A stretch of DNA of 64,000 nucleotides, taken from assembly GCF_003688895.1 (NCBI RefSeq), contig NZ_REFV01000002.1, positions 62,001 to 126,000 of the forward strand. The letters run 5' to 3'. Source of the stretch: Dokdonia sinensis. GTDB lineage: Bacteria; Bacteroidota; Bacteroidia; Flavobacteriales; Flavobacteriaceae. The translations under genes were made by a program, and so were the position numbers. The notes below the pieces were generated by a model that saw nothing but the letters and a program-made list of their open reading frames with translations, made no database searches and was not told where the DNA came from. Every line of letters begins with the position of its first letter. The stretch's first letter is position 1. Shown here one piece after another: positions 576 through 64,000 of this stretch.

Positions 576-1142
576 TTAACAGAATTTAAAGGAATTTGAT
601 GGGCTTACACAGTATTTCATCGAGACATCTAAGCTGTTTGTCGTTATTTCTTTTTCTTCTGGCTCAAAATAGGATAGGCCTATTGTAAGTAGTTCCTTGT
701 TAGATTCGGCAAGGAGCTTGTCGTAAAAACCTTTGCCGTAGCCTACTCTGTTTCCCTTACTGTCATAAGCAAGAAGTGGTAGGAAAACAACTTGCGCTTT
801 CGCGAAAGCGATTTCAATCCCATCTACAGGTTCTGGAATTCCGTATTCGTTTACTTGAAGCTTGGTGTTATCCAGCAATAGGAAGTGTTGCATTGTGCCC
901 TTTTCAAAATCAGACTTCGAGATGAGAACGTTCTTGTCTTTTCCCGAAAGGATGTTAAGAATGTAGGTCGTGTCTACCTCTAGCAGGCGTTCTATAGGTA
1001 AGAAAATATGGTAATAGTCGTATTCCCAAATATCAAGACCAAGCAATTGATTTGCAATAGCAAGACTGCGGTTATCGCGTTCCTCTGCAGAGAGGGAAGC
1101 GCGCAAGGCCTTATATTTCTTCCTCAGACTCGCCTTGTTCAC
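576..1142 (-). CDS. 5-formyltetrahydrofolate cyclo-ligase
   Basis: 188-residue protein matching the 5-formyl-THF cyclo-ligase (MTHFS/YgfA) family, which uses ATP to convert 5-formyl-THF to 5,10-methenyl-THF and recycles this inhibitory folate. The basic N-terminus (NKASLRKKYKALR) and the family signature GYGKGFYD at residues 134-141 are present. The start overlaps the end of the upstream deacylase gene by 32 bases, so translation is probably coupled. Residues 112-116 (AFAKA) are encoded by a copy of the interspersed palindrome GCTTTCGCGAAAGC, placed just before the LPLLAYD strand. Length is normal for the family. Confidence 0.93.
   Translation of the reverse strand: MNKASLRKKYKALRASLSAEERDNRSLAIANQLLGLDIWEYDYYHIFLPIERLLEVDTTYILNILSGKDKNVLISKSDFEKGTMQHFLLLDNTKLQVNEYGIPEPVDGIEIAFAKAQVVFLPLLAYDSKGNRVGYGKGFYDKLLAESNKELLTIGLSYFEPEEKEITTNSLDVSMKYCVSPSNSFKFC
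795..810. repeat. Iterated palindrome CGCTTTCGCGAAAGCG (inside folate cyclo-ligase gene)
   Basis: Perfect 16-bp palindrome, in frame, encoding AFAKA. One of 18 exact copies of the 14-bp core in the window. Confidence 0.97.
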
Positions 1143-2118
1143 TTGTTGATTTTTCTACAGAGACATTAAAAATGGCGTCGCCTTGATACACTAGTGATGC
1201 CTCATTAACATTAATCACATAACCTTCGGATTTTGCCTTTACTACGTGTCTAAATTTCCCATAAGGATCTGTAATCGTTGCGATGTGTTGTCCTATCTCT
1301 AGATGTTGCCCGCAATGCACTTTAGTATGCAGGAGACCGCTATAGTTTGCGCGTATCCATTGGGTGCTTTCTATATATTTAGACGGCCTATCTGCTTCTG
1401 GAACTTCAATGGCAGGGTCTAGCATTCCTAAATGTGCAAAAACCCGCATTGCTCCTTGTACGCCTGCTTTTGCAATTTCTTTGTCACTTACTTTAGATTT
1501 CCCGCCTTCAAACAGTAATACTGGAATCTTAAGCCTAGAACAGGTAGCACGATAGGATTTAGGGATAATCTTAGACGTGAGGGTGAATGGAGCATTAAAA
1601 ACCCGAGCATACTCTGCGGATACTACATCAAGGGGATCTATACGGACCTGCGCCACATTAAAACGAGCAGCACCTCCCGTATGAAAATCCAGACACAGAT
1701 CTGCAACGGGTAAAATTTTCTTTACAAATTGATATGCAAATCTACTGGCTAGAGAGCCTCTTGGATTTCCCGGAAAGACTCTGTTGAGGTCTCTGCCATC
1801 TGGAAAAGCTCGTTTCATATCCAGAAAGCCAAAAATGTTAACCACCGGTATACAAATGATGGTTCCTTTTTTGGGTTTATTAATTTTTCTGGCAATAATC
1901 TGGCGCACGATTTCTACACCATTGATTTCATCACCGTGTATTCCAGATGTAATTAAAATGACTGGCCCAGGCTTTTTTGCACGTTCAATAATGATAGGAA
2001 TCTCAACCGAGGATGTCGTGTAGAGCTTTGCAAGATTAAAATTAATCGTCGCTCTCTTTCCTGGCAACACCTTTTCTCCAAGAAGGGTCAGAACGTTATT
2101 TTCGTCTATGAATTTCAA
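1111..2118 (-). CDS. Succinylglutamate desuccinylase/aspartoacylase-family metallo-deacylase
   Basis: 335-residue zinc carboxypeptidase-like protein of the AstE/AspA family. The zinc site is visible as HGDE at residues 61-64 and the distal His in DFHTGG (His146); GRDLNRVFPG (about 108-117) is the substrate-binding arginine segment. The C-terminal 80 residues form a beta-rich biotinyl-like tail (GYVINVNEASLVYQGDAIFNVS). It lies 11 bases downstream of rimK and after the retropepsin-like rimB gene, so it probably removes or trims acyl or amino-acid adducts linked to the RimK reaction. The exact substrate cannot be read from the sequence. Confidence 0.88.
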   Translation of the reverse strand: MKFIDENNVLTLLGEKVLPGKRATINFNLAKLYTTSSVEIPIIIERAKKPGPVILITSGIHGDEINGVEIVRQIIARKINKPKKGTIICIPVVNIFGFLDMKRAFPDGRDLNRVFPGNPRGSLASRFAYQFVKKILPVADLCLDFHTGGAARFNVAQVRIDPLDVVSAEYARVFNAPFTLTSKIIPKSYRATCSRLKIPVLLFEGGKSKVSDKEIAKAGVQGAMRVFAHLGMLDPAIEVPEADRPSKYIESTQWIRANYSGLLHTKVHCGQHLEIGQHIATITDPYGKFRHVVKAKSEGYVINVNEASLVYQGDAIFNVSVEKSTSEQGESEEEI

Positions 2119-2129
2119 GGGCTATTGTA

Positions 2130-3002: not shown

Positions 3003-3420
3003 TGTTTTTTAGGTTGTAAGACACGTCTATAAGTTCTGTGTCTACGATGAATTTTTTAGTTAAAAGTTTACGGCCCAAAAGTACGGGAAAGCGCATATCT
3101 TCCCGCGAGCTTAGGGTTAAAGAAATACTATATTGTTTATTAAAGAGTATAATCTTGGTTTGTACCTCATAACGGTATTGGATCTCCCCGTTACTGCTCT
3201 TTACAGCGGCAATATCATAAAACTCAAACTTGAGCTCTCTCCCATCATACAGCGGGTGCGATGGATCTAGAAAAGTACAGATAAGCATGTCATTTTCCTC
3301 TCTTATGTTTGTACAATGAATGGAGGACGTGTAGGCTCCGGTATCCACTTTTACATCGATATCCTTAAAGCCCAACTCTGGAAAATCTGCCTTGTCTATT
3401 CTACCAATTGTCTTTTTCAT
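2977..3420 (-). CDS. rimB: Retropepsin-like peptidase, RimB type ('ATP-dependent zinc protease' family)
   Basis: 147 residues, with the aspartic-protease motif VDTGAYTSS at residues 25-33 (Asp26-Thr-Gly) and the second strand [14 protein letters not shown]. This is the small retropepsin-like family often labelled ATP-dependent zinc protease. RimB of Pseudomonas, also next to rimK, belongs to it and acts on RimK-modified S6. The single Asp-Thr-Gly motif implies a homodimeric active site. It is the first gene of a four-gene minus-strand operon and is divergent from uvrC. The symbol is assigned by family and context. Confidence 0.8.
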
Positions 3421-3479
3421 ATTAGGACGAGCAAGATACGCATATTACTATCTCATAAAGATATTTTAAGAGGAATTTA

Positions 3480-3499
3480 TACGCTTTCGCGAAAGCGTA
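3480..3499. repeat. 20-bp perfect palindrome upstream of uvrC promoter
   Basis: TACGCTTTCGCGAAAGCGTA, in the 105-bp divergent gap between rimB and uvrC. It ends 15 bases before the predicted -7 box of uvrC. The same 20-mer lies just upstream of the mfd -7 box (34883-34902) and at 46404-46423. Confidence 0.97.
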
Positions 3500-5319: not shown

Positions 5320-7551
5320 GTGCGTCATCTCTTTTTCATACTATCCATTTTTACCTTAGGCATTCTACAGGCTCAGGAGCCTGTACAAAAAGATGTAAAA
5401 GTAGGTTTGGTTTTAAGCGGTGGCGGCGCTAAGGGGCTTGCGCATATAGGCGCACTTAAAGTGATAGAGGAAGCGGGAATTCGCATAGACTATATTGCGG
5501 GGACCAGTATGGGAGCTATCGTTGGGGGATTATATGCCTCTGGATATAACGCAACTGCGATAGACTCTATTTTTAAAGCGGTAGACTTTGACCGTTTAAT
5601 ACAGGATGATTTACCCCGTAGTGCAAAGACCTTTTATGAGAAAGATGATGCCGAAAGGTATGCCGTGACATTGCCCTTTGATAATTTTAAGCTGTCCTTT
5701 CCTAGAGCGCTTTCTAAGGGTCAAAACACCTATAATTTGCTGAGTCAAGTTTTGGGTCACGTAGACACAATTCAGGATTTTGAGCAATTGCCTATACCTT
5801 TTTTCTGTGTTGCGACAGATGTCGAAAATGGACAACAGGTTATTCTAGATAGTGGTTATTTACCAGAGGCACTTTCGGCCAGTGGTGCTTTACCTTCGTT
5901 GTTTAGCCCAGTATTACTAAATGATCGTGTCCTTATAGACGGAGGGGTGATAAATAATTATCCGGTAGATGAGCTTAAAACAAAAGGAATAGATTATGTG
6001 ATAGGCATAGATGTTCAGGATAGGTTAAGAGATAGAGAATCCCTACAAACAGCACCAGAGATACTCATGCAAATTAATAACTATCGTACGATCCAGGCGA
6101 TGGAGGAAAAAAAGAAACGTACCGATGTATATATACGACCAGACATCGATGATTTTTCGGTTGTTTCTTTTGACGAAGGGGCAAAGATTGTGGAGAAGGG
6201 AAGGGTAAAGGCGTTTGAGAATTATGAGGCTCTACGGGAAATAGGGATGATGCAGAGACCGCTTTCGCGAAAGCGTACTCCTCCACCTAAACCTAAGGAT
6301 AGCATTACATTAGATGCCGTAAACATTACCGGAAATGAGAACTATACCAGAGCATATATTTTGGGGAAACTTAAACTGAATCCTCCTCAAAAAGTAAGCT
6401 ACAGCGACTTTAATAGTGGCCTAAACAATCTGGCTGCTACAGAAAACTTTGAGCGCATTAATCACAGGTTAACACCTACTCCAGATGGGCAAGTATTGCA
6501 GTTAAATTTAAGAGAATCTTCGAGTACTCAGAGCATCAGGCTGGGCGTGCATTATGATGATTTGTACAGAAGTGCTGCACTAGTAAATTTTACAAAGAAG
6601 CGTTTGCTGTTTAAAAATGACATTGCAACACTCGATTTTATAATAGGGGATAATGTGCGATACAATTTTAATTATTATATAGATAAGGGTTATTACTGGA
6701 GTGTGGGTGTACGGTCCACGTATAACACTTTTGATAAAGGAGTAGATGCGCGATTTGTGGAGAATGTGAGTGCTCTGGATTTTGGCGGTGTAAATCGTGT
6801 AAATTTGGAATACCAAGATGTCACAAATCAACTGTTTTTGCAGACACTTTTTCTAAAAGAATTTTCTCTAGACTTAGGCGCTCAACATAAATTTCTGGAT
6901 GTCGAGACAGAAACTATTGTAAATGATGCAACCCCTGACGAGAGTTTTATTTTTGAAAAAAGTCATCTTGGGGGAGTTTATGCTCAGCTGCGCTATGACT
7001 CGCTGGATGACCTTTATTTTCCTTCTTCTGGAGTATATTTTGATGGAGATTTTGACCTTTATCTCTTTTCGTCAGACTTTAATAACAATTTTACAGAGTT
7101 TTCTATTGCTAAAGCACGTTTTAAGTATGCAAAGAGCGTCACTTCTAATTTTACACTCATCACAGAGCTAGCAGGAGGATTTAAAATAGGAGGAGCAGAG
7201 ACACGATCGCTAGACTTCTTTTTGGGAGGTTATGGAAATCAGCGCATAAATAATCTGGTTCCGTTTCTGGGGTACGATTTTATAAGTTTCGGGGGTGACG
7301 GTTTTGTAAAAGCTGGCCTCACGGCAGATTTTGAAATTTTTAATAAGAACCATATCAATCTTTCTGCAAATTTTGCAAATGCAGGCGATGATCTTTTCTC
7401 ATCTGAAGATTGGTTGCCACCTCCGGCGTTTACGGGCTATGCAATAGGCTATGGTCTGGAGTCGTTTTTAGGACCGCTAGAAGTAAAATATAGCTATAGT
7501 CCTGAGATTAAGTCTGGAGAATGGTTTGTGAGTCTCGGGTATAGATTTTAG
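5320..7551 (+). CDS. Patatin-like phospholipase with POTRA and outer-membrane barrel
   Basis: 743 residues beginning with GTG directly after the uvrC stop. A signal peptide (FILSIFTLGILQAQ) precedes a patatin domain with the oxyanion loop GGGAKG (34-39), nucleophile Ser63 in GTSMG and catalytic Asp207 in DGGVINNYPV. A POTRA-like segment follows (about 325-400, ITLDAVNITGNENYTRAYILGKL), then a BamA/surface-antigen barrel ending in GYRF. This matches type Vd (PlpD-like) or outer-membrane patatins that display or anchor a lipolytic domain. A palindrome copy encodes LSRK in the linker between the patatin and POTRA parts. Confidence 0.9.
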   Translation: MRHLFFILSIFTLGILQAQEPVQKDVKVGLVLSGGGAKGLAHIGALKVIEEAGIRIDYIAGTSMGAIVGGLYASGYNATAIDSIFKAVDFDRLIQDDLPRSAKTFYEKDDAERYAVTLPFDNFKLSFPRALSKGQNTYNLLSQVLGHVDTIQDFEQLPIPFFCVATDVENGQQVILDSGYLPEALSASGALPSLFSPVLLNDRVLIDGGVINNYPVDELKTKGIDYVIGIDVQDRLRDRESLQTAPEILMQINNYRTIQAMEEKKKRTDVYIRPDIDDFSVVSFDEGAKIVEKGRVKAFENYEALREIGMMQRPLSRKRTPPPKPKDSITLDAVNITGNENYTRAYILGKLKLNPPQKVSYSDFNSGLNNLAATENFERINHRLTPTPDGQVLQLNLRESSSTQSIRLGVHYDDLYRSAALVNFTKKRLLFKNDIATLDFIIGDNVRYNFNYYIDKGYYWSVGVRSTYNTFDKGVDARFVENVSALDFGGVNRVNLEYQDVTNQLFLQTLFLKEFSLDLGAQHKFLDVETETIVNDATPDESFIFEKSHLGGVYAQLRYDSLDDLYFPSSGVYFDGDFDLYLFSSDFNNNFTEFSIAKARFKYAKSVTSNFTLITELAGGFKIGGAETRSLDFFLGGYGNQRINNLVPFLGYDFISFGGDGFVKAGLTADFEIFNKNHINLSANFANAGDDLFSSEDWLPPPAFTGYAIGYGLESFLGPLEVKYSYSPEIKSGEWFVSLGYRF
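6260..6275. repeat. Iterated palindrome in patatin linker
   Basis: CGCTTTCGCGAAAGCG read in the LSRK frame (PLSRKRTPPPKPK), exactly at the flexible linker between domains. Confidence 0.97.
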
Positions 7552-9946: not shown

Positions 9947-10432
9947 TTACTCTATGATTAAGTTTTCTTTGGCTTTTAATGTTGTTACTTCAACATTATA
10001 GGCGGTTACAATTTGCGTAATTTGGTTTAGGGTTGTGATTGTTTTTGCTTTCGCGAAAGCGCTACCATCATCTACAATACGAAGCATAAAATCTACCTTG
10101 GGCAGTTCTTGCATAAATACATAGCGTTTAGTCCCGTTATTCTCAAAGCCAAACAATCCATCTTTTTCCTCTCGAGCTACTGATATCCGCACTCTATTCT
10201 GAAGAAGTTGATAAGTTAGATATCGATAATCATCCTCGTATTGAAAAAGTGGAAATCCCGCTTCCAGCCCAGCAAAGTTTAAAAGAACATCCTTTCTTCT
10301 TCTTTCAAGCTTTATTTTGAGGTGTTTATTGAGTAGGAAAGCAAGGTAGTACGGCTCCAGTGAGCAATGAATGGCAATGAGTGTAAAATCATAGCTTATA
10401 TCATTCTCTAAAACAAGCTTATATGTTCCCAT
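9947..10432 (-). CDS. IPExxxVDY family protein
   Basis: 161 residues. The position (between rnc and pyk) and the motif near residue 110 (QELPKVDFML, a variant of IPExxxVDY) identify this Bacteroidetes-restricted family of unknown function. It is cytoplasmic by appearance, with no signal peptide. The gene abuts pyk. A palindrome copy near the 3' end encodes AFAKA (SAFAKAKTITT), just after the motif. No function can be assigned. Confidence 0.8.
   Translation of the reverse strand: MGTYKLVLENDISYDFTLIAIHCSLEPYYLAFLLNKHLKIKLERRRKDVLLNFAGLEAGFPLFQYEDDYRYLTYQLLQNRVRISVAREEKDGLFGFENNGTKRYVFMQELPKVDFMLRIVDDGSAFAKAKTITTLNQITQIVTAYNVEVTTLKAKENLIIE
10047..10060. repeat. Iterated palindrome in IPExxxVDY gene
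   Basis: Exact 14-mer GCTTTCGCGAAAGC in the AFAKA frame. Confidence 0.97.
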
Positions 10433-14685: not shown

Positions 14686-15276
14686 ATGAAACGTATTGTA
14701 ATTTTTGCCTCGGGTAACGGTACAAACGCCCAGCGTATTGTAGAGTATTTTAAGGACCGTACGGATGCCCGAGTCGTGCAGTTGCTCAGTAACAACCCCC
14801 GTGCCAAAGTGCTAGAACGCGCTCGAGGCCTCGACATCAGTGCCTTAAGCTTTAACCGTCAGGCCTTCTATAAGACAGACGATGTGCTCAACCTGCTCAA
14901 AACGACTGCTCCAGATGTGATTGTACTGGCTGGATTTCTTTGGCTCTTCCCAGAGAAAATCATTCATGCGTTTCCTAATAAGGTTATCAATATTCACCCG
15001 GCCTTACTTCCAGATTTTGGAGGTAAGGGAATGTACGGGATGAATGTTCACGAGGCTGTTTCCGCTTTCGCGAAAGCGCACTCAGAACAAAAACACTACA
15101 CAGGAATCACCATACACAAAGTAACGCCAGAGTATGACAAAGGCGAATACCTTTTCCAAGCCAAAGTAGAGGTGACTCAAAATGACACGCCCGAAACTAT
15201 TGCCGAAAAAGTGCATCAATTAGAATATGCGCATTTTCCAGAAGTGATAGCATCATTTTTGAAAAAAAATAATTAA
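14686..15276 (+). CDS. purN: Phosphoribosylglycinamide formyltransferase
   Basis: About 196 residues. Transfers a formyl group from 10-formyl-THF to GAR in purine synthesis. The N-terminal FASGNGTNAQRIVEYF phosphate loop, catalytic Asn/His in INIHPALLPDFGG and Asp in EYDKGEYLF are present. The ATG at 14686 (MKRIVIFASGNG) fits homologues; an ATG at 14662 only adds eight non-conserved residues. A palindrome copy encodes AFAKA in the loop between the GGKGMYG motif and TGITIHKV. It is divergent from acpP, as usual in Flavobacteriaceae. Confidence 0.96.
   Translation: MKRIVIFASGNGTNAQRIVEYFKDRTDARVVQLLSNNPRAKVLERARGLDISALSFNRQAFYKTDDVLNLLKTTAPDVIVLAGFLWLFPEKIIHAFPNKVINIHPALLPDFGGKGMYGMNVHEAVSAFAKAHSEQKHYTGITIHKVTPEYDKGEYLFQAKVEVTQNDTPETIAEKVHQLEYAHFPEVIASFLKKNN
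15063..15078. repeat. Iterated palindrome in purN
   Basis: CGCTTTCGCGAAAGCG in the AFAKA frame (VSAFAKAHSEQ), in a surface loop. Confidence 0.97.
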
Positions 15277-17438: not shown

Positions 17439-17454
17439 CGCTTTCGCGAAAGCG
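17439..17454. repeat. Iterated palindrome, intergenic
   Basis: Exact CGCTTTCGCGAAAGCG, 91 bases upstream of the -33 element of the PfkB gene. Confidence 0.97.
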
Positions 17455-21730: not shown

Positions 21731-21746
21731 CGCTTTCGCGAAAGCG
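21731..21746. repeat. Iterated palindrome, intergenic
   Basis: CGCTTTCGCGAAAGCG, 15 bases after the barrel gene stop, between two co-directional envelope genes. Confidence 0.97.
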
Positions 21747-30636: not shown

Positions 30637-30650
30637 GCTTTCGCGAAAGC
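30637..30650. repeat. Iterated palindrome, intergenic
   Basis: Exact GCTTTCGCGAAAGC next to the bacilliredoxin terminator. Confidence 0.97.
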
Positions 30651-34882: not shown

Positions 34883-34902
34883 TACGCTTTCGCGAAAGCG
34901 TA
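34883..34902. repeat. 20-bp perfect palindrome upstream of mfd promoter
   Basis: TACGCTTTCGCGAAAGCGTA ends eight bases before the mfd -7 box; identical to the element upstream of uvrC. Confidence 0.97.
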
Positions 34903-38461: not shown

Positions 38462-39035
38462 GATTATCGTTTTAATGGTTTTGGTTACCGCTTTCGCGAA
38501 AGCGGAATTATCCCGCGCCCAAAAAGTAGAAAAGGAGTACCGCATCGACGAGGTTGCCGTGCCTCAGGTTGCACGAGACTTTATCGCATCTTTTGATGTC
38601 TCCCGAAAAATAAAATGGATACAAGAAGTGAGTGACGAGGGAACATCAATAGAAGCAAAATTTAAAAGTTCGGGAACACGCTACAGTATCGAGTTTACGG
38701 AAAGTGGAATGCTGGAAGATCTAGAGGTGCTTGTAAAAATGGGTGATATAGGTAAAATCATTAGAAAGAATATAGAAAATTATCTAGACACAACATTTGA
38801 TTATTATAAAGTCGAAAAAGTACAGGCACAGTACATAGATACCCCAGAACGCATCTTACAATGGCGAGCGACAGATAAGAAATTGCGTAGCCTAAGGCCT
38901 AAATATGAGATTGTGTTAAAAGCGCGCAACTCAGGAAGTAGTGCGAAGCGGTTTGAATTTCTTTTTGACGAGGAAGGAATATTTATAAAAAAGGAGCAGA
39001 TCATTAAACGTAATGATAATATTTTACGCTTTTAA
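38454..39035 (+). CDS. Secreted protein of unknown function
   Basis: 193 residues from the ATG at 38454, overlapping the small membrane gene. The signal peptide IIVLMVLV is followed by TAFAKAELS, encoded by a palindrome copy, then RAQ. The mature part (VPQVARDFIASFDVSRKIKWIQEVSDEGTSIEAKFKSSG) resembles PepSY-like or beta-lactamase-inhibitor-like folds found in Bacteroidetes, but this is only a resemblance. It precedes a DUF2490 gene by two bases, so they form a unit. Confidence 0.75.
   Translation: MNRIIVLMVLVTAFAKAELSRAQKVEKEYRIDEVAVPQVARDFIASFDVSRKIKWIQEVSDEGTSIEAKFKSSGTRYSIEFTESGMLEDLEVLVKMGDIGKIIRKNIENYLDTTFDYYKVEKVQAQYIDTPERILQWRATDKKLRSLRPKYEIVLKARNSGSSAKRFEFLFDEEGIFIKKEQIIKRNDNILRF
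38488..38505. repeat. 18-bp palindrome in signal-peptide codons
   Basis: CCGCTTTCGCGAAAGCGG, AFAKA frame, between the hydrophobic core and cleavage site of the secreted protein; followed by AATTAT. Confidence 0.97.
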
Positions 39036-42842: not shown

Positions 42843-42856
42843 GCTTTCGCGAAAGC
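42843..42856. repeat. Iterated palindrome between sbtA and sulP genes
   Basis: Exact GCTTTCGCGAAAGC, seven bases after the sbtA stop (minus strand). Confidence 0.97.
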
Positions 42857-45474: not shown

Positions 45475-45488
45475 GCTTTGCCGAAAGC
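45475..45488. repeat. Near-copy of iterated palindrome, intergenic
   Basis: GCTTTGCCGAAAGC: the two inner bases of the left half (CG) are swapped to GC. Confidence 0.8.
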
Positions 45489-46147: not shown

Positions 46148-46582
46148 AATGTTGTGTTTTTGTTGATTAATCTTTCTTAAAAAACAAAGTTAAGCAATGT
46201 AGTTCTTCTTCTATGTTATAGAAATCTTATAGTTTTTGTGGATGTTTTTGCCCTTTTGATCTGAATAACTAATTAGCTGAGTGGAGAATAAGTAAATTTA
46301 AGCTTACTGAGCAGACATAGGTTTGTACAAGACTTTAACCAAATGAGAATCATACGATGATAAATGGCGTGCTCAAATTTATAACGCTGTTACTTGGGTA
46401 TTATACGCTTTCGCGAAAGCGTAAAAAGCAACATTTTCATTTATAAAGCATTTATTTTCACTAAGAATTTACATCCAGATTTTAAGGGCTTACCTTTCAT
46501 ATAAAATACCCATTATTGGGTATTGTCTAGAACGGCTATCAAATTTATTTTAGCTCAATACTATTAACCAAATTAAATATCT
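46148..46582. other. 435-bp divergent intergenic region
   Basis: Between sod (-) and the Kelch lipoprotein (+). It contains the sod -7 box, a 20-bp palindrome (46404-46423) and an 8-bp-stem hairpin AATACCCA-TTAT-TGGGTATT at 46505-46524. TTGGGTATT also occurs at about 46395. No gene is seen. Confidence 0.7.
46404..46423. repeat. 20-bp perfect palindrome, intergenic
   Basis: TACGCTTTCGCGAAAGCGTA, identical to the copies upstream of uvrC and mfd. Confidence 0.97.
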
Positions 46583-48155: not shown

Positions 48156-51100
48156 ATGTCACAACACAATACGTTTACAATTTATAATGCCTCTGCGGGA
48201 TCTGGTAAAACTTATACGCTAGTGAAACAGTATGTGAGTATTTTACTTAGAAGCAACAGTCCCTACAAATACCGTAATCTGCTTGCAATTACCTTTACAA
48301 ATAAAGCTGTTGAGGAAATGAAAGAACGAGTTATTACAACGCTTCTTGATTTTTCAAACTATAATGGCGACAAAGAAATTCCTACGATGATGGAAGATCT
48401 TTCTAACTCACTAAAACTATCGCAAGAGGAGATAATCAAGAAATCTAAAATAATCTTAGAGAACATCATACACGACTATGCCTCGCTGGACATACTTACA
48501 ATAGACACTTTAACGCATCGTATTTTAAGGACCTTCTCAAAAGATTTAGGGCTTTCTGGTAATTTTGAAATATCATTAGACGTTAACGAGATTTATGAAA
48601 AAGCTGTAGATCTCCTTATAGATAAAGCAGGAACGGATAAGGAAATCACAGAAGTACTTATCAATTTTGCCTTAGAAAAAGCAGACGATGACAAAAGTTG
48701 GGATATTAGTTATGACCTAAATACTATCGCTAAGTTGCTATATAAGGAAAATGACAGAGATGCAATCACGAGAATAAGCAAACACGATCTAGCCGATTTT
48801 AAGAAGCTTAAGACAATCCTTAACAAAAAGATCCTTTCTCTTAAAACGAAAATAAAAACAAACACAGACACTGCACTTGAACTAATAAATAATAATGGGC
48901 TTACTTTAGATAATTTTTTAAGTACTTTCTCAAAACACCTTCAAAAACTGGATTCAGAACCGGAGACTGTTAGTTATCCTGCAACTACAAAGTGGCTTCA
49001 GGACATCTCCGTATATAACTTTTACCGAGCTACTGAAAAGTCAGAAATAAAAGCAACAATTGACAGCATAAAGCCACAGCTCATTACATTCTTTGACGAG
49101 ACCAAGGCACTTCACTACAAAATCACCGAGTTGGAAGATTTTAAGAAAAGACTAGTACCACTTTCTGTGCTCAGGCTCATTTACAATGAGATCCAGAGCA
49201 TAAAAGAAGATCAAAACTTGTTGCTTATTTCAGATTTTAATGAGCATATCTTTAAATACTTGCGTAACGAACCCGCAGCATTTATCTACGAGAGATTAGG
49301 AGAGCGCTACACAAATTATTTTGTAGATGAGTTTCAGGACACCTCTGTAATGCAATGGAGTAATCTTATTCCTCTTATGGAAAGTGCCTTAAGTTCTCAA
49401 TCTGAAGATGAGGTTCCTAATACTGCTTTGCTCGTGGGCGACCCAAAGCAGGCTATTTATCGCTGGCGAGGTGGGAAGGCCGAGCAATTTATCGATTTGA
49501 GCAATGGAAAGCAGCCCTTTGCTATAGAAAATTTTAAGACAGAATATCTAGATACCAATTGGAGAAGCCACGAGGAAATTATAAAATTTAATAACGCCTT
49601 TTTTACACATCTAGCTCAAGAATATAGTAATCCAAACTATGAAGAAATTTATAAGACAGGAAATACTCAAAACACCAACCATCGTAAGGGAGGGTATGTT
49701 GCCCTTAATTTTGTAGAAGGTGCAACCGTAGAAGAACTAGAACCCCTGTATCTAAAAAAAACATTACAGATAGTAAGAGAAATCCAGCAGGATAACATCC
49801 CTCTAAACGACATTTGTATCTTGACTAGAAGTAATAAGCACGGTGCCGCAGTAGCCCGTTTTCTTGCAGAAAATGACATTAAGGTCGTTTCAAACGAGAG
49901 TCTTTTGTTATCATCTTCTCCAGAGGTAAACTGTCTCAATGCGATGCTTACCTTAATGGTTCACCCAGATACTGCAGAAATCACAATAGTAGTGCTGGAG
50001 TACCTTACAGAAGTTCTTAAGATTGAGGACAAGCATTATTTTATTGCAGAGCATATCCATCTTCCTACACAGCAATTATTGCAAAAACTTTCTTCTGAGT
50101 ATCAAATTTTAATAGAAACAAGCATTTTTAACACCCTTCCATTGTATGAGGGAGCAGAGTATCTTCTGCGAGCTTTATCCCTAGACAAAAAAGGGGATGC
50201 ATTTCTTGTGGGATATCTCAATGAGATATATGAGTTTACAGCAAAAAATGGGGGACTTAGTGATTTTCTCGCATATTACGAGCTCAAAAAAGATAAGCTC
50301 AGTATTCAGATTCCCAGACAGGAGGATGCTATACAATTAATGACCATCCATAAATCTAAGGGGCTTGAGTTTCCTGTAGTAATTTTCCCTTATGCAGATG
50401 CAGATTTGTATTCCCATAGAGAAGAATATCATTGGTTAGAGACAGAGGCGCAAACTTTTGGAGGTTTCGAAGAATTACTCATAAGCCACAGGAGTGAGAT
50501 GGTAAATTATGGAGAACTTCCAGCAGCGCTTTATGAAGAAAGGCAGTCGCAGCAACAATTTGACGCCATAAACGTGCTATACGTTGCCCTTACACGGGCC
50601 GTAAGAAGGTTATATGTGGTATCCCGCTTTCGCGAAAGCAAAAACAAAAAAATGTACTACGGTCACTTGCTACAATCATATATCCAGAGTAAAGACCTCT
50701 GGGAAGGTCCTGAAAAAAGATATGATTGGGGTACTACTGAAGTACTAATAAATAAGGAATCTAAAATTCAAACTACCCAAAAAATAGAATTTTTTTCGTC
50801 GCCTAAAGAAGCACACAATATCCAAGTAATTACAAAAGCCAGCACCTTGTGGAATGAGCAACGACAAGAAGCTATATCTTATGGAAACTTACTACACGAG
50901 TTACTTGCAAAAATTAAACATCGCGGCCAGCAAGAAGCCGTCATTGAGCAGGCCTTAGAGGAAGGTCTTATAAACCGTGAGCAAGTCCCAGAAATTACCA
51001 GTCATCTTAATAAAGTGATGTTACATCCTGATTTACAAGAATTATTTATAAATGGGAATACAATATACAACGAGAGACCTATTCTCGATAGTGATGGAAA

Positions 51101-54105: not shown

Positions 54106-56817
54106 ATGGAATCATTTATTGAAGAAGTTGTCGCTACGGTATTAAAGCAGAACGACGATGTTACAAATACCTTGTTCATTGTCCCTAGCAGAAGGGCTGG
54201 AAACATGGTGCGTAGTGCACTTTCGCAAAAGCTTAATAAAACAATTTTTGCTCCAGAAATATTCAGTATCGAGGAGTTCATTGCGCATATTTCTGGCTTA
54301 AGAGCTATAGATGCAACCGAACAATTATTTACGCTTTTTAAAGTCTATCAAGAAAAAACACCGAAAGTTAATCAGGAATCATTTGCTGTCTTCTATGGTT
54401 GGGCACAAACTGTACTTCACGATTTTAACGAGATCGATAGGTATCTTGTTAGTCATAAAGAGTTTTTTGATTATCTAAGTGCCGTCCAAGAAATCAATCA
54501 TTGGTCATCAGAAAATAATCAAACAGATATTATTAAACGTTACCTCGATTTTTGGGAAACACTTCCAGTACTTTACAAAGCATTTTGTACAAAACTTGAA
54601 AAACAAGGTAAAGGTCATCAAGGAATCATCTATAGAAAAGCCGCCGATGATGTAGAGTTTTACATCGAAAATAATAAAGACAAACAACACATATTCATAG
54701 GCTTCAATGCTCTTAATACCTCAGAGCAGCACATTATTCAAGCATTATTATCTGCGGGAAATACTTCAGTTTTTTGGGATGCAGAGGAGTGGTTTATGAA
54801 GAATAAGAAGCACGAGGCTTCCTATTTTTTAAGAGCTTATAAAAAGGAGTGGAAGTATTACCAGACGAACCCTTTTTTAGCCGTTTCAAATAATTATCCA
54901 GTCCAAAAAAATATACGATCCATCGCAGTAACTCAAGATATTGAGCAAGCTAAACTCGTAGGGCAACTATTACAACAATATACAAGTAGTAAAGAATTGC
55001 GCAATACCGCCGTTATTCTGAATGACGAACGGTTACTCATACCTATTCTTAATGCGCTTCCTGACCATATTAAAAAAGTAAATATCACAATGGGAGTGCC
55101 TCTAGGCCAAACGCCTACAGCAGCACTCTTTGACCAACTTTTTTTGTTACATACTCATGTTTCTCAACGTGGCTACTATTATAAACAAGTGGTTGCCATA
55201 TTACAACATCAAGCCGTTGGAAAATTACTGGGGTCAAATTTAGAAAGGATTAAAAAAACAATAGCTAGCCAGAACTACGTCTACTTTTCTGAAAAGGAAA
55301 TAAAAACAATGATCCTCCAGAACACAGAGAGTGATATTGTGGCCAGCCTATTTACAAGTTGGGATGATAACCCGAACAATGCCATAAAATTATGCCTCAC
55401 ATTCATTCAGGGGCTTAAAGAAAGCTTACTTCATAGTGATCATAAGGAAGCTCTTGCACTTGAGTACTTATTTGGTTTTTACAAGGTCTTTAATCAGCTC
55501 AAAAACTTAAATGACACTTATGCCTTCATTGAGGATGTGGCGACGCTTAGACGTTTTTATATGGATGTTATCGGTTCACATACTTTAGATTTAAGAGGAG
55601 ATCCCTATGAAGGACTACAGATTATGGGCGTACTCGAGTCTAGACTCCTGGACTTTAAGAATATTATCATGACCTCTGTAAATGAGGGAGTGATACCTGC
55701 AGGAAAAAGCACTAACTCATACATTCCATATGACCTCAAACTAACATACAAACTGCCCACCTTCCGGGAGAAAGATGCAGTTTACGCCTATCACTTCTAT
55801 AGATTATTGCATCGTGCAAACAATGTCGATTTTATATACACAACTTCGTCACAAGGAATAGGAAGTACAGAAAAGAGCCGTTTTATTTTACAGATGGAAA
55901 TAGAAGGGCCACATGATCTAGCCAGTAGTGTTGCCACATCTTCATTTCAAGTTGCACCGTATACTGAAAATACAATCTTAAAGACTCCAGAAATAATATC
56001 CCGCTTACGCGAAATTGTACAATCCGGGCTTTCCCCATCATCACTCACAACATACATCAGAAATCCAATTGATTTTTATTACAAATACGTGCTGCGTATT
56101 AAGGAACGAGAAGATGTTGAAGAGACCGTAGCCGCAAATACAATGGGAACCATCGTTCATAATACCTTGGAAGAGCTCTATAAACCTTATGTAAACGTAA
56201 AACTCACAGCCCAAATCATCGAAGGCATGATTCTAAAAATTGATGCCGAGGTAAGAAATCAATTTGCAACCGAATACGGGCTCACACAGATCGCCCAAGG
56301 GAAGAATCTCATTATTTATCAAGTGGTGTGTCGCTACGTGGAGAACTATTTGCAGCTGCAGTTGTCCAGTTTAAAAAGCGGAGATACCATCGTCGTAAGA
56401 GGGTTGGAATCAAATCTTAATGTGTCATTTAAAAAAGAAATTAACTTCAAAGGAAAAGTAGATTTAGTAGAGGAGCGCAATGGTGATATACGCATTATAG
56501 ATTACAAAACAGGAAAGGTAGAATCAAGGCACTTATCTCCTGCAAATTGGGAAGATTTACTTGACGACACCGGTAAATACGAGAAGGCATTCCAAGTTTT
56601 AATGTATGCTTATATGATGCATAAAAAAACGCCGCTGGCATTACCTATAAGCGCAGGGATTATCTCCTTTAAAAATTTAAAGTCTGGCTTTATGCCATTT
56701 AAAAAAGACAAGAGTACAGATATCACAGAAGAGACCTTGTCTTCTTTTTCAGAAATATTGGATCAGTTAATCGCCGAGATTTTAAATCCTGATATTCCCT
56801 TTGCTCAACCTACATAA
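54106..56817 (+). CDS. PD-(D/E)XK exonuclease, AddB-like
   Basis: 903 residues. N-terminal IFIVPSRRAG-type inactive helicase start (FIVPSRRAGNMVRSAL), central domain (LRGDPYEGLQIMGVLESRLLDFKNIIMTSVNEG), and C-terminal nuclease with LSPSSLTTYIRNPIDFYYKYVL and the catalytic IRIIDYKTG. It fits the AddB/RexB-like partner of the helicase at 48156-51296. No intact Walker A is seen, as in AddB relatives. Confidence 0.88.
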   Translation: MESFIEEVVATVLKQNDDVTNTLFIVPSRRAGNMVRSALSQKLNKTIFAPEIFSIEEFIAHISGLRAIDATEQLFTLFKVYQEKTPKVNQESFAVFYGWAQTVLHDFNEIDRYLVSHKEFFDYLSAVQEINHWSSENNQTDIIKRYLDFWETLPVLYKAFCTKLEKQGKGHQGIIYRKAADDVEFYIENNKDKQHIFIGFNALNTSEQHIIQALLSAGNTSVFWDAEEWFMKNKKHEASYFLRAYKKEWKYYQTNPFLAVSNNYPVQKNIRSIAVTQDIEQAKLVGQLLQQYTSSKELRNTAVILNDERLLIPILNALPDHIKKVNITMGVPLGQTPTAALFDQLFLLHTHVSQRGYYYKQVVAILQHQAVGKLLGSNLERIKKTIASQNYVYFSEKEIKTMILQNTESDIVASLFTSWDDNPNNAIKLCLTFIQGLKESLLHSDHKEALALEYLFGFYKVFNQLKNLNDTYAFIEDVATLRRFYMDVIGSHTLDLRGDPYEGLQIMGVLESRLLDFKNIIMTSVNEGVIPAGKSTNSYIPYDLKLTYKLPTFREKDAVYAYHFYRLLHRANNVDFIYTTSSQGIGSTEKSRFILQMEIEGPHDLASSVATSSFQVAPYTENTILKTPEIISRLREIVQSGLSPSSLTTYIRNPIDFYYKYVLRIKEREDVEETVAANTMGTIVHNTLEELYKPYVNVKLTAQIIEGMILKIDAEVRNQFATEYGLTQIAQGKNLIIYQVVCRYVENYLQLQLSSLKSGDTIVVRGLESNLNVSFKKEINFKGKVDLVEERNGDIRIIDYKTGKVESRHLSPANWEDLLDDTGKYEKAFQVLMYAYMMHKKTPLALPISAGIISFKNLKSGFMPFKKDKSTDITEETLSSFSEILDQLIAEILNPDIPFAQPT

Positions 56818-58498: not shown

Positions 58499-61400
58499 TT
58501 AATTTTTTGAAATGGTTAAAATTGTTTTTATATCATCAAAAGCAATCTCGAGGCCGTCATTTATAGTCGGAACGATCTCAAGACTATCTGCTAGTGTTTC
58601 TGCTTTAATATATGTTGCATTCGTCGCAATTGTCTCGTTAATCGATGCTTCTTCTTGTAACTTAATATGGATACGGTCTGTCACTTCCAGGCCAGAATCC
58701 TTACGTAAGTTTTGAATACGGTTTACAAGTTCCCGGGCCACGCCTTCTTTACGTAACTCGTCACTTATAGTTACATCTAACGCAACAGTTACTCCCGCAT
58801 TACTAGCAACAAGCCACCCCTCGATATCTTGAGATGTTATCTCTACGTCTGAGGCCTCCAAAATAACATTTTCTCCTTTAATTTCAACAGTTAATTGTCC
58901 TTCGCGCTCGATTGTAGCAATATCTTTTGCTTCAAGTGAATTTATCTTGCTAGCAATCAGCTTCATATCTTTTCCGAAGCGTGGGCCCAATACCTTAAAA
59001 TTAGGCTTGATTTGCTTCACTAGGATGCCAGAATCATCAGAAATAAGCTCGATTTCTTTTACGTTTACCTCAGATTTAATTAAATCTTCGACCGCATTTA
59101 TCTCTTTTTTATCCACTTCATTCAGTACAGGAATCATAATACGCTGTAAGGGCTGGCGTACTTTGATTTTTTCTTTTGCCCTGAGCGAAAGCGTTAACGA
59201 ACTTATAACCTGCGCCTTCTGCATCTTATGTTCTAACGCAGTATCGATATATTTCGTATCGCTCACAGGAAATTGTGCAAGGTGAATGCTTTCAAAATCT
59301 TCTCTTCCAGTTGTAGCGTTCAGGTCTTTGTAGAGCTTCTCCATAAAAAATGGAGCTACAGGAGCACTAAGCTTTGCAACCGTCTCTAGACACGTGTATA
59401 ATGTTTGATAGGCAGAGATTTTATCTGTCGCATACTCACCTTTCCAGAAGCGTCTTCTACTCAAACGTACAAACCAGTTAGATAAGTTTTCTTGTACAAA
59501 CTTGTCTATGGCTCTTGTCGCCTTAGTTGGTTCGTATTCCGCATAAAATTTGTCTACTTCGGCGATAAGCGAGTGTAGTTCTGATAAGATCCAGCGGTCT
59601 ATTTCTGGACGTTTAGAAAGTTCTATTTCCGCTTCCGCGAAAGCGAAACTATCCAGATTTGCATACAGTGCAAAGAAGTTATACGTATTGTAAAGCGTCC
59701 CGAAAAACTTACGTTTTACCTCCTCGATGCCATCTAAATCAAACTTGAGATTGTCCCAAGGATTTGCATTAGAAATCATGTACCAGCGCGTCGCATCTGG
59801 CCCGTAGGTTTCAAGGGTCTCAAAAGGATCTGTAGCATTGCCGAGACGTTTAGACATTTTTTGTCCGTTCTTGTCAAGTACAAGTCCGTTAGAAACAACG
59901 TTTTTGTAGGCCACATCGTCAAAAATCATTGTCGCAATGGCGTGTAGCGTATAGAACCAACCACGAGTTTGATCTACACCTTCGGCGATGAAGTCTGCTT
60001 TGCGCCAAACATCTTCTACAAGCTCTTTATTTTCAAAAGGGTAGTGCCATTGCGCATAAGGCATTGATCCAGAGTCAAACCAAACATCGATCAAATCTGC
60101 CTCACGGGTCATAGGTTTACCGCTATCTGAAACAAGCGTGATTTTATCTACTACGTTTTTGTGAAGGTCTACCAGATCGTAGTTTTCCTCACTCATATCA
60201 CCTACTTTAAATCCTTCAAAAGGATCTGTGGTCATTACACCTTTGTCTAATGCTTTTTGGATTTCGGCTTTTAGTTCTGCAATAGAACCTATCAAAAGTT
60301 CTTCTTTTCCATCTTCGGTACGCCAGATAGGTAATGGGATTCCCCAGAAACGACTACGTGATAAATTCCAGTCATTTGCATTTGCTAGCCAGTTACCAAA
60401 ACGGCCTTCTCCTGTAGACTTCGGTTTCCAATTGATGCCCAGGTTTAACTCGTGCATACGGTCTTTAAAGTCGGTCACTTTGATAAACCAAGAATCTAGC
60501 GGATAATATAATACAGGCTTATCTGTACGCCAGCAGTGTGGGTAACTGTGTACGTATTTCTCAACCTTAAATGCTTTATTTTCTTCTTTTAAACGAATGG
60601 CAAGCTCAACGTCCATCGATTTCTCTGGAGCTTCACCATCGTTATAATATTCGTTTTTGATGTACTTATTTCCAAATTCTTTTAGCTCAGGGCGAAATTT
60701 TCCCTGAAGGTCTACAAGAGGAACCAAGTTTCCATCTCCATCTTTAATCAAAAGTGGCGGCACTTCTGGTGAAGCTAGTTTTGCAACAAGCGCATCATCT
60801 GCACCAAAGGTAGGTGCGGTGTGTACGATTCCTGTTCCATCCTCAGTCGTTACAAAGTCTCCAGCAATCACACGAAAGGCATCCTGCGGATTGTCATTAG
60901 GCTGTACGAAATCGAATAACTGCTCATAGCGAAGTTCTAATAAATCTGCGCCTTTACATTCTTTGATTATGTAATAGGGGATCTTTTTATCGCCAGCCTT
61001 GTAGGTATCCAGTTCTTCTTTCGCGGAAGCGGAAACAAACTTTTTATCAAATTGCTTAGCAACTAAGTTCTTTGCAAGAATGACGCGAGTAGGCTCAAAA
61101 GTATATTGATTAAAGGTCTCTACAAGTACATAATCAATCTTCTTTCCAACAGTAAGCGCGGTATTAGAAGGCAATGTCCAAGGCGTGGTCGTCCAGGCTA
61201 GAAAATAAGTCCTTCCGTCTGCAAGCTCTTTTGCAAGTGCGTTTTCACCTTGAGCGGTTACTTTAAACTGTGCCACCACCGTTGTGTCTGTAACGTCACG
61301 ATACGCACCAGGTTGGTTAAGCTCGTGTGAGCTCAATCCTGTTCCGGCTTTTGGAGAATATGGCTGGATCGTGTAGCCTTTGTACAGCAAATCTTTATTG

Positions 61401-61906: not shown

Positions 61907-62092
61907 TTTACGGTCTTTATTATTTGTGCGCGAATTTACGGGTTTTTTGTTGGAAAATGCGTGACGTACTTTACTGATGCAAACAACTACTATATGTTAC
62001 AACATTGAACATATAATACGGCAGTATAAGGCACTTAAAAGAAAGTCATAAGACGCAGGTTTAATACTTCTTGTAGCTAGCTTGATTACCTA

Positions 62093-63028
62093 TTATTTTT
62101 CCAACTCCTTAACAAGCAACCAAGCGGCCTTGTTGTCAGAAGTTCTTATCGAACGCAATTCTGAAAGTGCATTTTTACTATCTGAGAAACTACCATACAC
62201 TACTTGGTGTAGTCCGTAGCGGTTAGTTCCTATCTGACGGGCTTTGTAGCCTTTATCTCTGAGTTCAGAAACTTTTTTTGATGCATTTTCTGCCTGGCGG
62301 AAGGCACCAGCAACAATATGATATTTCCCCACAGGCTTCATTACCGAAAGTGTAACTGCAGGTAGCGGGTTTTCAATGATAAAAGTCGCTTCTTGAATCT
62401 TTCCTTCAAGTTGCTCATCTGCCTCTTGCTGTGAAGCGTAGTTGTATTCTTCTACATTCTGAACATACTTAAATCCAGCGAGACCTATTCCGCCCAGAAT
62501 AACCATTCCGGCAACGGCATATTTTATCCAGCTGCTAGAGCGACGCTCTGGTGTAAAAGCAATAGGCGCTTTTTCTTCTAGTTTTTCGACTTCTTCCTTA
62601 TATACTTCACGCGCAATTTGTGGTGTAGTAAATGAAGCAAGTCCAAAGGAGTCAGTTAAGTAATTGAGATGATACGAAGGCTCAAAAATTACGTGACTAT
62701 CTGCCGTGAGCGATAGCGTCCCTATATTTTCTAGAACTTGAGTTTCTCCTCTGTGCAAGCTGTCAAAAAGAAAACGCACATAACTCGCAATGCGATTGTT
62801 TGCTTCCTCGTGAGGAATCATCTCACTTTTTGCAATATAATTAGCCAGCAGGCCGTCATTGTCGGTGAGTTGTGCATTAAACGATAAACGCTTTTGCGGT
62901 GGGTAAAATGCATTAGTACTTTCGTGTACGCGCGCACTTTTATATTGGGTGAGAAATGCACCAAAATTTGGTAAAATCACACACTCATATCTGTATAAAA
63001 GGTCGCTTATGTACTGGTCTAACTGCAT
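62093..63028 (-). CDS. HU-CCDC81/SPOR-domain membrane protein
   Basis: 311 residues. The N-terminal CCDC81-type HU-like region (YISDLLYRYECVILPNFGAFLTQYKSA) is cytoplasmic; a single membrane segment (about 168-187: YAVAGMVILGGIGLAGFKYV) follows; the C-terminal SPOR domain (KYHIVAGAFRQAENASKKVSELRDKGYKARQI) binds denuded peptidoglycan at division sites. Divergent from dprA, a usual neighbour in Flavobacteriaceae. Confidence 0.9.
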   Translation of the reverse strand: MQLDQYISDLLYRYECVILPNFGAFLTQYKSARVHESTNAFYPPQKRLSFNAQLTDNDGLLANYIAKSEMIPHEEANNRIASYVRFLFDSLHRGETQVLENIGTLSLTADSHVIFEPSYHLNYLTDSFGLASFTTPQIAREVYKEEVEKLEEKAPIAFTPERRSSSWIKYAVAGMVILGGIGLAGFKYVQNVEEYNYASQQEADEQLEGKIQEATFIIENPLPAVTLSVMKPVGKYHIVAGAFRQAENASKKVSELRDKGYKARQIGTNRYGLHQVVYGSFSDSKNALSELRSIRTSDNKAAWLLVKELEK

Positions 63029-63129
63029 ATCTCAAAATTAACCAAAATCGCGAGTGAGCCAAGACTTTCTACAACATTTTATTAACACGCAGAAATATCG
63101 TTACTTAGACCGCTCAATCTTGGATTCTT

Positions 63130-64000
63130 ATGTCAGAAAATGAACTTTTAACCCTCTTAACTTTGCAACATACGCCTAATCTGGGTGACGGAACCATTAA
63201 AAAGTTCATTAATATTTTTGGGAGTGCAGAAGAGGTCCTTCGGCAAAAGAAAAGTACGTTGTTAAAAATTGACGGCGTAGGGGAGCATAAATTAAGTGCT
63301 TTTGGTAAGGAGGAGTATTACGCTTTCGCGAAAGCGGAATTACAATACATACACGACAATAACATCCAGTACGCCACATACACAGATCCACATTACCCAC
63401 AGAAACTAAAGCATTGCATAGATGGGCCGATACTACTCTTCTCTCGTGGAAATATAGACTGGAACAACCCGCGTATCATTAGTATCGTGGGGACGCGTAA
63501 GATTACCACCTATGGAACTGCATTTTTAGAAAAACTCATTGCAGACATCGCACCGCTTAATCCGCTTATAATCTCTGGATTTGCTTATGGTGTGGACATC
63601 ACAGCCCATAAAGCGTGCGTCGAGCACGGAGTTCAAAACGTAGGAGTACTTGCCCACGGCCTGAATCAAATCTATCCCAAAGTACATTCAAAATACACCA
63701 AAGCCGTAGAAGCAAACGGCGGTTTTGTTACAGATTTTTGGAGTAGTGACAGTTTTGTGCATACTAACTTCTTGCAACGCAACCGTATTATCGCGGGACT
63801 GAGCGAAGCCACAATTGTCATAGAATCTGCTGCCAAGGGCGGTTCTCTTGTGACCGCTGAATTTGCAAATGGGTACAACCGTGACGTCTTTGCCGTTCCT
63901 GGTCGTGCAGATGACAAACAAAGTCTGGGTTGCAATAATCTTATTAAGCAGCAAAAGGCACACTTGATGACCAGCGCAGCAGACTTGCTATATATTTTAA
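63130..64000 (+). CDS. dprA: DNA processing protein DprA (cut by window edge)
   Basis: 290 complete codons from the ATG at 63130, open to the window edge. A helix-hairpin-helix-like N-terminal region (FINIFGSAEEVLRQKKSTLLKIDGVGEHKL) precedes the Rossmann-like DprA/Smf domain (ISIVGTRKITTYGTAFL; ISGFAYGVDITAHKACVEHG; VGVLAHGLNQIYP; KGGSLVTAEFANGYNRDVFAVPG). DprA loads RecA on imported single strands. A palindrome copy encodes AFAKA in the N-terminal part. Confidence 0.95.
   Translation, partial: MSENELLTLLTLQHTPNLGDGTIKKFINIFGSAEEVLRQKKSTLLKIDGVGEHKLSAFGKEEYYAFAKAELQYIHDNNIQYATYTDPHYPQKLKHCIDGPILLFSRGNIDWNNPRIISIVGTRKITTYGTAFLEKLIADIAPLNPLIISGFAYGVDITAHKACVEHGVQNVGVLAHGLNQIYPKVHSKYTKAVEANGGFVTDFWSSDSFVHTNFLQRNRIIAGLSEATIVIESAAKGGSLVTAEFANGYNRDVFAVPGRADDKQSLGCNNLIKQQKAHLMTSAADLLYIL
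63321..63336. repeat. Iterated palindrome in dprA
   Basis: CGCTTTCGCGAAAGCG, AFAKA frame (YYAFAKAELQY), followed by GAATTA as in three other intragenic copies. Confidence 0.97.

Follow-up and report, generated by a model that had tools for sequence, protein, structure and literature searches.

A highly iterated, evenly spaced palindrome in Dokdonia genomes as a candidate mark for DNA uptake or recombination

An over-represented palindrome in the window and the genome

The window analysed here, a 64-kb stretch of the Dokdonia sinensis genome, contains 18 exact copies of a perfect palindrome with the 14-mer core GCTTTCGCGAAAGC (Table 1), raising the question of what maintains a word repeated on this scale and what reads it. 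These copies had been listed in an original prediction made from the sequence alone and every one was found in its place, while a simple gene caller gave the same division into 7 intergenic copies and 11 within genes. The near copies listed there were also recovered, each with one or two mismatches; the window holds one-mismatch copies at 19786, 28532 and 59631 and two-mismatch copies at 23821, 41025, 45475, 54219 and 61017.

Table 1. Exact copies of the palindrome in the 64-kb window and near copies with arms (flanking sequences described below)
Feature	Position	Strand	Context
Exact core	796..809	.	In gene 576-1142 (-), frame giving AFAKA
Exact core, both arms	3483..3496	.	In uvrC-like gene 3316-5319
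Exact core, both arms	6261..6274	.	In patatin/Omp85 gene 5320-7551; G001 has core at same aligned place
Exact core, both arms	10047..10060	.	In gene 9947-10432 (-)
Exact core, both arms	15064..15077	.	In gene 14662-15276
Exact core, weak arms	17440..17453	.	Intergenic, divergent genes
Exact core, both arms	21732..21745	.	Intergenic
Exact core, both arms	26285..26298	.	In TPR gene 26211-27614
Exact core, one good arm	30637..30650	.	Intergenic
Exact core, both arms	32989..33002	.	In lycopene-cyclase-like gene; exact in 5/6 aligned relatives, one substitution in the sixth
Exact core, one good arm	33911..33924	.	In oxidoreductase gene; exact in 0/7 aligned relatives
Exact core, both arms	34886..34899	.	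Just upstream of mfd; exact in 6/6 aligned relatives
Exact core, both arms	37809..37822	.	Inside mfd, encoding NAFAK in a variable loop; exact in 9/15 aligned relatives
Exact core, both arms	38490..38503	.	In gene 38409-39035; exact in 0/3 aligned relatives
Exact core, weak arms	42843..42856	.	Intergenic
Exact core, both arms	46407..46420	.	Intergenic, divergent genes
Exact core, both arms	50626..50639	.	In AddA-like gene 48156-51296 (UvrD helicase and PD-(D/E)XK domains); G001 has core at same aligned place
Exact core, both arms	63322..63335	.	Intergenic
One-mismatch core, both arms	59631..59644	.	In ileS-like gene; site has decayed or is incomplete
Two-mismatch core, one good arm	45475..45488	.	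Intergenic
Two-mismatch core, one good arm	54219..54232	.	In AddB-like gene
Two-mismatch core, one good arm	61017..61030	.	In ileS-like gene

Far from being confined to the window, the exact 14-mer occurs 857 times in the whole genome of 3.65 Mb, or once per 4.3 kb, compared to 0 for the reversed control word. In 464 kb of this genome we found 108 exact, 22 one-mismatch and 31 two-mismatch copies, compared to a Markov expectation for the same 464 kb (mean of three order-3 sequences) of 0, 0 and 1.7. Inside genes lie 60 of the 108 copies, against a mean of 0.25 (maximum 2) in 100 codon-preserving shuffles. The excess far beyond chance that had been claimed was upheld by both controls, which place the frequency well away from compositional prediction and rule out codon or base composition as the source of the 14-mer. 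The palindrome visibly shapes protein sequences: the peptide AFAK was seen 48 times, with 2.2 expected.

Core, arms and spacing

The core is strictly kept and extended as TAC...GTA, giving a palindrome of 14–20 bp. Each flank carries an arm of ~18 nt that is G/T-rich, C-poor and has a 3-nt period, present outside reading frames too. On both strands, the sequence 5' of the core has T-over-A peaks at −4, −7, −10 and −13, with weaker ones at −16 and −19, and the 3' flank is A/C-rich with no T tract. Left and right arms showed no covariation over 342 sites. The arms are scarcely better conserved than their surroundings, and changes to C are only mildly rarer in them than in the background (18/96 and 36/248 vs 0.22 and 0.21).

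A palindrome that is denser outside genes (0.66/kb vs 0.15/kb inside, in G000) might function as a transcription terminator or RNA hairpin, or be what remains of a very small mobile element. However, the A/C-rich 3' flank argues against a terminator and the independence of the two arms against a hairpin, and Rfam gave no match in the window; on these grounds terminator, RNA hairpin and cruciform were rejected. The share of copies in genes also argues against an element of the REP or MITE type, since the sites are not mainly intergenic.

The even spacing of the sites is a new observation on this palindrome, beyond the original prediction. In G000 the gaps between sites have a coefficient of variation (CV) of 0.65, compared to 0.98 for random placement, only 5 gaps are shorter than 1 kb where 21.7 are expected, and none of 5000 simulations was as even. 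Typical spacing is roughly 4 kb. Spacing more even than random was also significant in G001, in g11 and in the pooled remaining DNA of the genus, and was not significant among the 25 sites of g191 (p = 0.125). G000 also contains large motif-poor gaps.

Even spacing and strong conservation would suit an architectural role, in which a nucleoid or segregation protein following the logic of Noc, SlmA or MatP orders the chromosome every ~4 kb, and a palindrome of 14–20 bp with independent, symmetric half-sites would suit a dimer. Noc, SlmA and MatP have tens of sites each, however, compared to the hundreds of palindromes here, and phasing of the arms by 3 nt is, to our knowledge, no usual feature of double-strand readers. 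We regard this reading as unlikely.

Distribution among relatives and turnover of sites

All 18 genus genomes searched contain the palindrome, with 369–905 exact copies each. In a family survey of 397 genomes from 237 genera, hundreds of copies were found in three genera only, the window's own and two others, and 0–19 elsewhere. Of 76 non-Dokdonia loci, the 75 examined (L123 was left out) held no comparable iterated palindrome. A different word, TCATTTCGAAATGA, has 6 copies in 17 Muricauda-group loci and may represent one orthologous site. Viral contigs yielded at least 120 stretches; 9 of the 85 scored sites in the 80 listed loci had an arm score above 6, a threshold of our own choosing. In other genera the palindrome seems to mark islands that moved horizontally, in which Pfam identified copper/heavy-metal efflux genes; with this content, a conjugative nature of the islands was dropped. 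Evidence on a possible independent origin of the palindrome in g11 is divided: the Mfd protein of g11, at 70–72% identity, ranks under many non-carriers, but it sits on a long branch in an Mfd tree (690 residues; 31 rows, with one from g1 and none from g191), and this one-protein tree did not reject a clade of g1 and g11 (p = 0.286). Within the small part of each genome compared, no gene stood out among the top rows for unusual likeness between g11 and g1 or g191.

Conservation was measured for 50 G001 sites aligned to G016 (94.5% identity) and G004 (81%). Of the sites covered, 47 of 48 were exact in G016, compared to 56.5% of control 14-mers, and 37 of 40 in G004, compared to 17.2%. Around mfd, 20 of 37 site-genome pairs were exact, against 1.5–4.9% of control 14-mers. 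The sites are therefore kept at the DNA level. In one 200-kb region, sequence identity near sites is flat against G016, and against G004 it is 0.836 at 30–100 bp and 0.807–0.826 from 100 to 5000 bp. Each of the three G001 sites not retained in G004 has a G004-only site 343–2087 bp away, a proximity with permutation p of 0.002–0.026 by statistic and null (n = 3). Where G004 alone has a site, several bases separate it from the corresponding G001 sequence.

Of the 19 site differences listed among near species, 18 come down to one substituted base, and none showed a clean empty site lacking the 14 bp; this pattern of turnover disfavours a mobile element. On the other side, the mfd loop holding the core is 2–4 residues shorter in the 56 displayed rows from other genera, and several site differences at 72–81% identity align with gaps. 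These two observations led us to raise the probability of the residue, terminator or hairpin reading slightly, and it stays very improbable.

The deviations also bear on a further explanation, that the word is a product of a dedicated DNA methylase with linked repair, as for HIP1, biased mutation making and keeping it. C6 to T accounts for 11 of 43 single deviations from the core, which could reflect cytosine methylation, and one study describes cyanobacterial highly iterated palindromes as accompanied by cognate methylases (PMC4390886). Mutation bias alone, however, predicts neither the even spacing nor the replacement of lost sites. A search of 13 carriers and 11 non-carriers with three Pfam methylase families found none common to the carriers: PF00145 was present in 5 (absent in 8), PF01555 exceeded the cut-off in 2 and PF02086 occurred in 8, with no match to any of them in G006 (one contig) and G258. 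A dedicated methylase of these families as common cause was rejected, being missing from several carriers, and we consider the explanation as a whole improbable.

Candidate readers and known systems

Of the roles suggested in the original prediction, a mark for DNA uptake or recombination fits best, mobile-element residue and methylase target are disfavoured, and a nucleoid protein may still be the reader. We tentatively favour, at somewhat short of even odds, a self-mark that serves DNA uptake or the homologous recombination following it, in the manner of the DUS of Neisseria and the USS of Haemophilus. The core would be recognized by a protein that is sequence-specific and probably dimeric, either during uptake in natural transformation or in subsequent recombination. 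Fragments holding one core would have an advantage in uptake or recombination; cores would spread in this way, and biased recombination together with selection would then preserve them. A single core every few kb would be enough, which would account for the even spacing. The arms may ease strand opening or the growth of a RecA filament on the strand becoming single-stranded. All 24 genomes tested contain the ComEC channel family, whether or not they carry the palindrome, so the uptake machinery does not explain the distribution of the palindrome; no report of competence in the carrier genera was found in the literature surveyed.

The main rivals to such a self-mark are a nucleoid-protein site and a two-way Chi, a recombination hotspot that works in both directions. 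In the latter, the core would halt or switch the end-resecting AddAB nuclease arriving from either side, with the arms stabilizing RecA on the strand that ends 3'. Against this reading, the Chi sites known so far have a direction and are short; in its favour, the density of cores here, one per 4.3 kb, lies near that of Chi in E. coli. The G/T-rich, T-peaked 5' side on both strands is where RecA would load, and AddA- and AddB-like genes lie within the window. RecA groups ssDNA in threes and dissociates most slowly from TGG repeats, which suits arms phased by 3 nt, though in the same study RecA nucleation is favoured by neither Chi nor TTG repeats (PMC3763553). Also against this reading, AddB of G027 (g11) is 39% identical to that of the window genome, among the lower of 156 matching genomes in a sample that left out g191. 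With AddB of G027 thus ordinary, there was no sign that a common AddB specificity had been transferred. We hold the two-directional hotspot, too, to be unlikely.

Only a few DNA marks found throughout a genome (DUS, USS, Chi and HIP1) have a reader that is known or supposed. As far as the open-licence literature shows, none has been described for Bacteroidota, and no counterpart in Flavobacteriia was found there, as had been claimed. The palindrome is symmetric, and its flank phased by 3 nt points to a recombinase-type filament. It is conceivable, if doubtful, that it represents a kind of signal not described before, acting in Bacteroidota as a bidirectional signal for recombination or self-recognition and composed of a double-strand core and single-strand arms of about six RecA-type triplets, spaced by ~4 kb and renewed when lost.

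Sites of Noc, SlmA, MatP and ParB are likewise chromosomal palindromes of the dimer type, but the present palindrome is ten or more times commoner. The likeness to HIP1 (GCGATCGC) that had been noted stands, in that both are highly iterated palindromes in and between genes. Unlike HIP1, the palindrome measures 14–20 bp rather than 8–10, has about a quarter of the density reported for HIP1, carries G/T-rich arms phased by 3 nt and has none of the three tested methylase families common to its carriers. It resembles Chi in density and in being G/T-rich on the flank expected to engage RecA, but it is much longer and strand bias is impossible, a perfect palindrome having no direction.

The DNA uptake sequences DUS of Neisseria and USS of Pasteurellaceae are evenly spaced and affect protein sequence; they are not known to be palindromic. 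Treangen et al. report high conservation of DUS, permissive locations, spacing matching conversion tracts, new copies that differ too much to have arisen by point mutation and surroundings more divergent than average (PMC2397512), and for USS a rigid inner core, weaker flanking AT tracts and evolution by point mutation are described in another study (PMC7811141). Several features are shared with the palindrome. First, it is an exact word over-represented genome-wide, in all 18 genus genomes searched. Second, its spacing is more even than random. Third, it combines strict conservation, permissive places and a rigid core with softer flanks, as in those studies. Lastly, the several-base differences at G004-only sites resemble those reported there for new DUS copies. 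In contrast to DUS, the surroundings of the palindrome were not more divergent in the 200-kb region, although this is not a defining trait. Unlike DUS and USS, the palindrome is symmetric with G/T arms phased by 3 nt, occurs once per ~4 kb rather than ~1 kb, and is hosted by Bacteroidota.

Abundance and genomic range of the palindrome

The 14-bp perfect palindrome GCTTTCGCGAAAGC, hereafter the core, occurs in 18 exact copies in the 64-kb window, and an exact-match search found every one where the original prediction had placed it. The motif is not limited to the window: the whole genome (G000; 3,647,482 bases) contains 857 exact copies, or one per 4.3 kb, and 0 copies of a backwards-read control pattern. 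A 464-kb sample of it (C1:1-400000 plus the window) held 108 exact cores compared to none in three order-3 Markov sequences, and the 60 within called genes, where 100 codon-preserving shuffles averaged 0.25, confirmed the predicted excess beyond base and codon composition. The peptides encoded by the core were likewise more frequent than expected from composition (AFAK, 48 vs 2.2; LSRK, 16 vs 1.9; FRES, 14 vs 1.1).

Each of the 18 genomes examined from the window's genus (g1), its own included, carried 369 to 905 cores. Among 397 family genomes from 237 genera, hundreds of cores were found in six carriers: two of g1, three of genus g11 (578, 609 and 664) and one of genus g191 (408); 74 of the remaining 391 had 1 to 19 and the rest had none. 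In a phylum sample of 296 genomes, overlapping partly with the family set, 280 had no core and the maximum was 4 except in the window's own genome. Among 80 named loci surrounding mfd, all 4 titled Dokdonia and 0 of 76 others contained an exact core. By Mfd identity, the nearest genus sampled to g1 is g191 (81%), with g11 more distant (70–72%). Since a g1+g11 clade was not rejected in the single tree made, one origin of the mark, followed by turnover, is possible.

In non-carrier genera, cores were often clustered among the matches listed. Two such genomes, G177 and G231, have four cores in common with identical spacing (933, 10754 and 3991 bp), and the flanks in their clusters and in that of a third, G353, looked proper by eye. 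From this clustering and common spacing, the core seems to betray DNA derived from carriers and may act as a tag of horizontal transfer. Separately, four viral contig pieces (L357, L361, L375 and L399) contain cores with proper arms and near-identical flanks in common, and are perhaps related proviruses of carriers. Another palindrome, TCATTTCGAAATGA, was present in 6 copies in 388 kb from the 17 Muricauda-group loci of the mfd set (0.01 expected), which may represent one orthologous site.

Searches of the open-access literature found no earlier mention of the 14-mer, the 10-mer core only in 10 papers with titles not on flavobacteria, the 12-mer and related words only in two papers unrelated by title, and nothing on a Dokdonia methylome, a Bacteroidetes or flavobacterial uptake sequence or a Bacteroidetes HIP1; an earlier description elsewhere, for example in subscription papers or preprints, is possible.

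Features carrying or related to the core
Feature	Coordinates	Description
Exact core in mfd	window 37809-37822 (gene 34935-38327)	in loop stretch extra in Dokdonia Mfd
AddA-like gene	window 48156-51296	exact core, same aligned place in G001
AddB-like gene	window 54106-56817	
G177 cluster	C1:302000-341999 (L162, L163)	copper/heavy-metal efflux island: RND pump, P-type ATPases, multicopper oxidase (Pfam)
G231 cluster	C1:1150000-1169999 (L164)	core spacing identical to G177
G353 cluster	C5:45000-64999 (L165)	P-type ATPases related to those of G177 (Pfam)

Arms, conservation and turnover

The core is extended outward as TAC...GTA and flanked on each side by an arm of ~18 nt. On the strand running 5' to 3' into the core, the arm is G/T-rich and C-poor: C content per 3-base bin is 3–9% between -4 and -18 compared to 14–15% at -22 to -30 (342 pooled sites). 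This signal was seen in G000, its relative G001 and g11, and was weaker in g191. T-over-A bias peaked at -4, -7, -10 and -13 and weakly at -16 and -19. The 3-nt period is not a codon effect alone, since it persists in the 50 of 342 sites centred outside any open frame of at least 50 codons (0/1000 shuffles as strong) and, among coding sites, gives clear peaks in frame 0 (93 sites), with weaker ones in frames 1 (32) and 2 (34). Left and right arms neither covaried over the 342 sites nor correlated in strength, and therefore form no stem. Base by base, arms were conserved barely above their surroundings, with changes to C only slightly rarer than background. Among 43 single deviations from the core in pooled carrier DNA, none fell at T3 or T4, 11 were C6 to T and 16 were at G1.

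The core itself was strictly conserved. Over 200 kb with 50 exact sites in each of G001, G016 and G004, 47 of 48 covered G001 sites were identical in G016 (94.5% identity; 56.5% of control 14-mers) and 37 of 40 in G004 (81.4% identity; 17.2% of controls); with G004 as reference, 37 of 44 covered sites were found in G001. When G000 was set against G001, two site pairs were compared and both were at the same place. In the mfd region, comparison of the window with 15 relatives gave 37 site-genome pairs, of which 20 were identical, compared to 1.5–4.9% of controls. The core of the AddA-like gene keeps its aligned place in G001 even though identity between the two proteins, where they align, is just 47%.

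For 13 non-independent pairs of near genomes, which are 80–95% identical where they align, single substitutions account for 18 of the 19 site differences listed; the remaining one is a gappy alignment. At 81% identity, several-base differences, some gapped, were found at 2/3 G001-only and 7/7 G004-only sites. For each of the three G001-only sites, a G004-only site lies at a distance of 343, 1899 or 2087 bp (p 0.013 and 0.002 by permutation; 0.026 and 0.006 with new sites kept off old ones), and these three events suggest that lost sites are replaced by nearby new ones. Between genera, no coding site held its aligned position relative to g1 (0/6 in g11, 0/6 in g191), a core was present no more than 60 bases away for 2 of the 6 g11 sites, and an ileS site of g11 aligned to a two-mismatch form in g1. 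Since the core-bearing Mfd loop is 2–4 residues shorter in the 56 listed of 76 other-genus rows, the history of the mfd core includes the gain of a few codons by insertion. Another insertion adjoins the core in the mfd of locus L053.

Spacing of cores was more even than random in G000 (CV 0.65 vs 0.98; 5 gaps <1 kb vs 21.7 expected), G001 (0.62), g11 (0.45) and pooled other g1 DNA (0.49); the g191 value of 0.76 was not significant (p 0.125, 25 sites). By a simple gene caller that overlooks some genes, core density was 0.66 per kb outside genes and 0.15 inside. At 12.7 kb, the widest interval between exact cores in the window (50626-63322) includes three near copies (54219, 59631 and 61017) that retain one or two good arms and are perhaps decaying or forming sites.

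Possible function and likeness to uptake sequences

The even spacing of sites, their apparent replacement and their strict conservation favour a function that requires roughly one core in every few kb of DNA, and argue against both a mobile element and mutation bias acting alone; the gappy cases slightly raise the mobile and transcript readings, which together are still highly improbable. As a palindrome, the core calls for a symmetric reader protein. A HIP1-type methylase cause (PMC4390886) fits poorly and is very unlikely: the methylase family PF00145 was detected in 5 of 13 carriers, PF01555 above cut-off in 2 and PF02086 in 8, none in all 13, and carriers G006 and G258 matched none of the three. 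AddB was ordinary in the single g11 genome sampled and ComEC was present in 24 of 24 genomes tested, leaving no reader candidate among these five in the genomes tested.

Of the two main rivals, both rather unlikely, one is a nucleoid or segregation site and the other a two-way Chi. The 3-nt phased G/T arms are reminiscent of RecA, which, according to PMC3763553, arranges bases in triplets and has its greatest stability on TGG repeats; the same study reports that RecA nucleation is not favoured on Chi or TTG repeats.

We tentatively prefer an uptake or recombination self-mark, a reading that we consider possible though short of probable, drawn from the spacing, apparent replacement and conservation of sites, the palindrome, arms that by analogy recall RecA preferences, and likeness to known uptake sequences. 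In contrast to the DUS of Neisseria as described in PMC2397512, this core does not have more divergent surroundings; it shares with DUS, as reported there, strong conservation, location in permissive places and new copies that differ from their homologues, and with the USS of Pasteurellaceae (PMC7811141) a rigid core with softer flanks.
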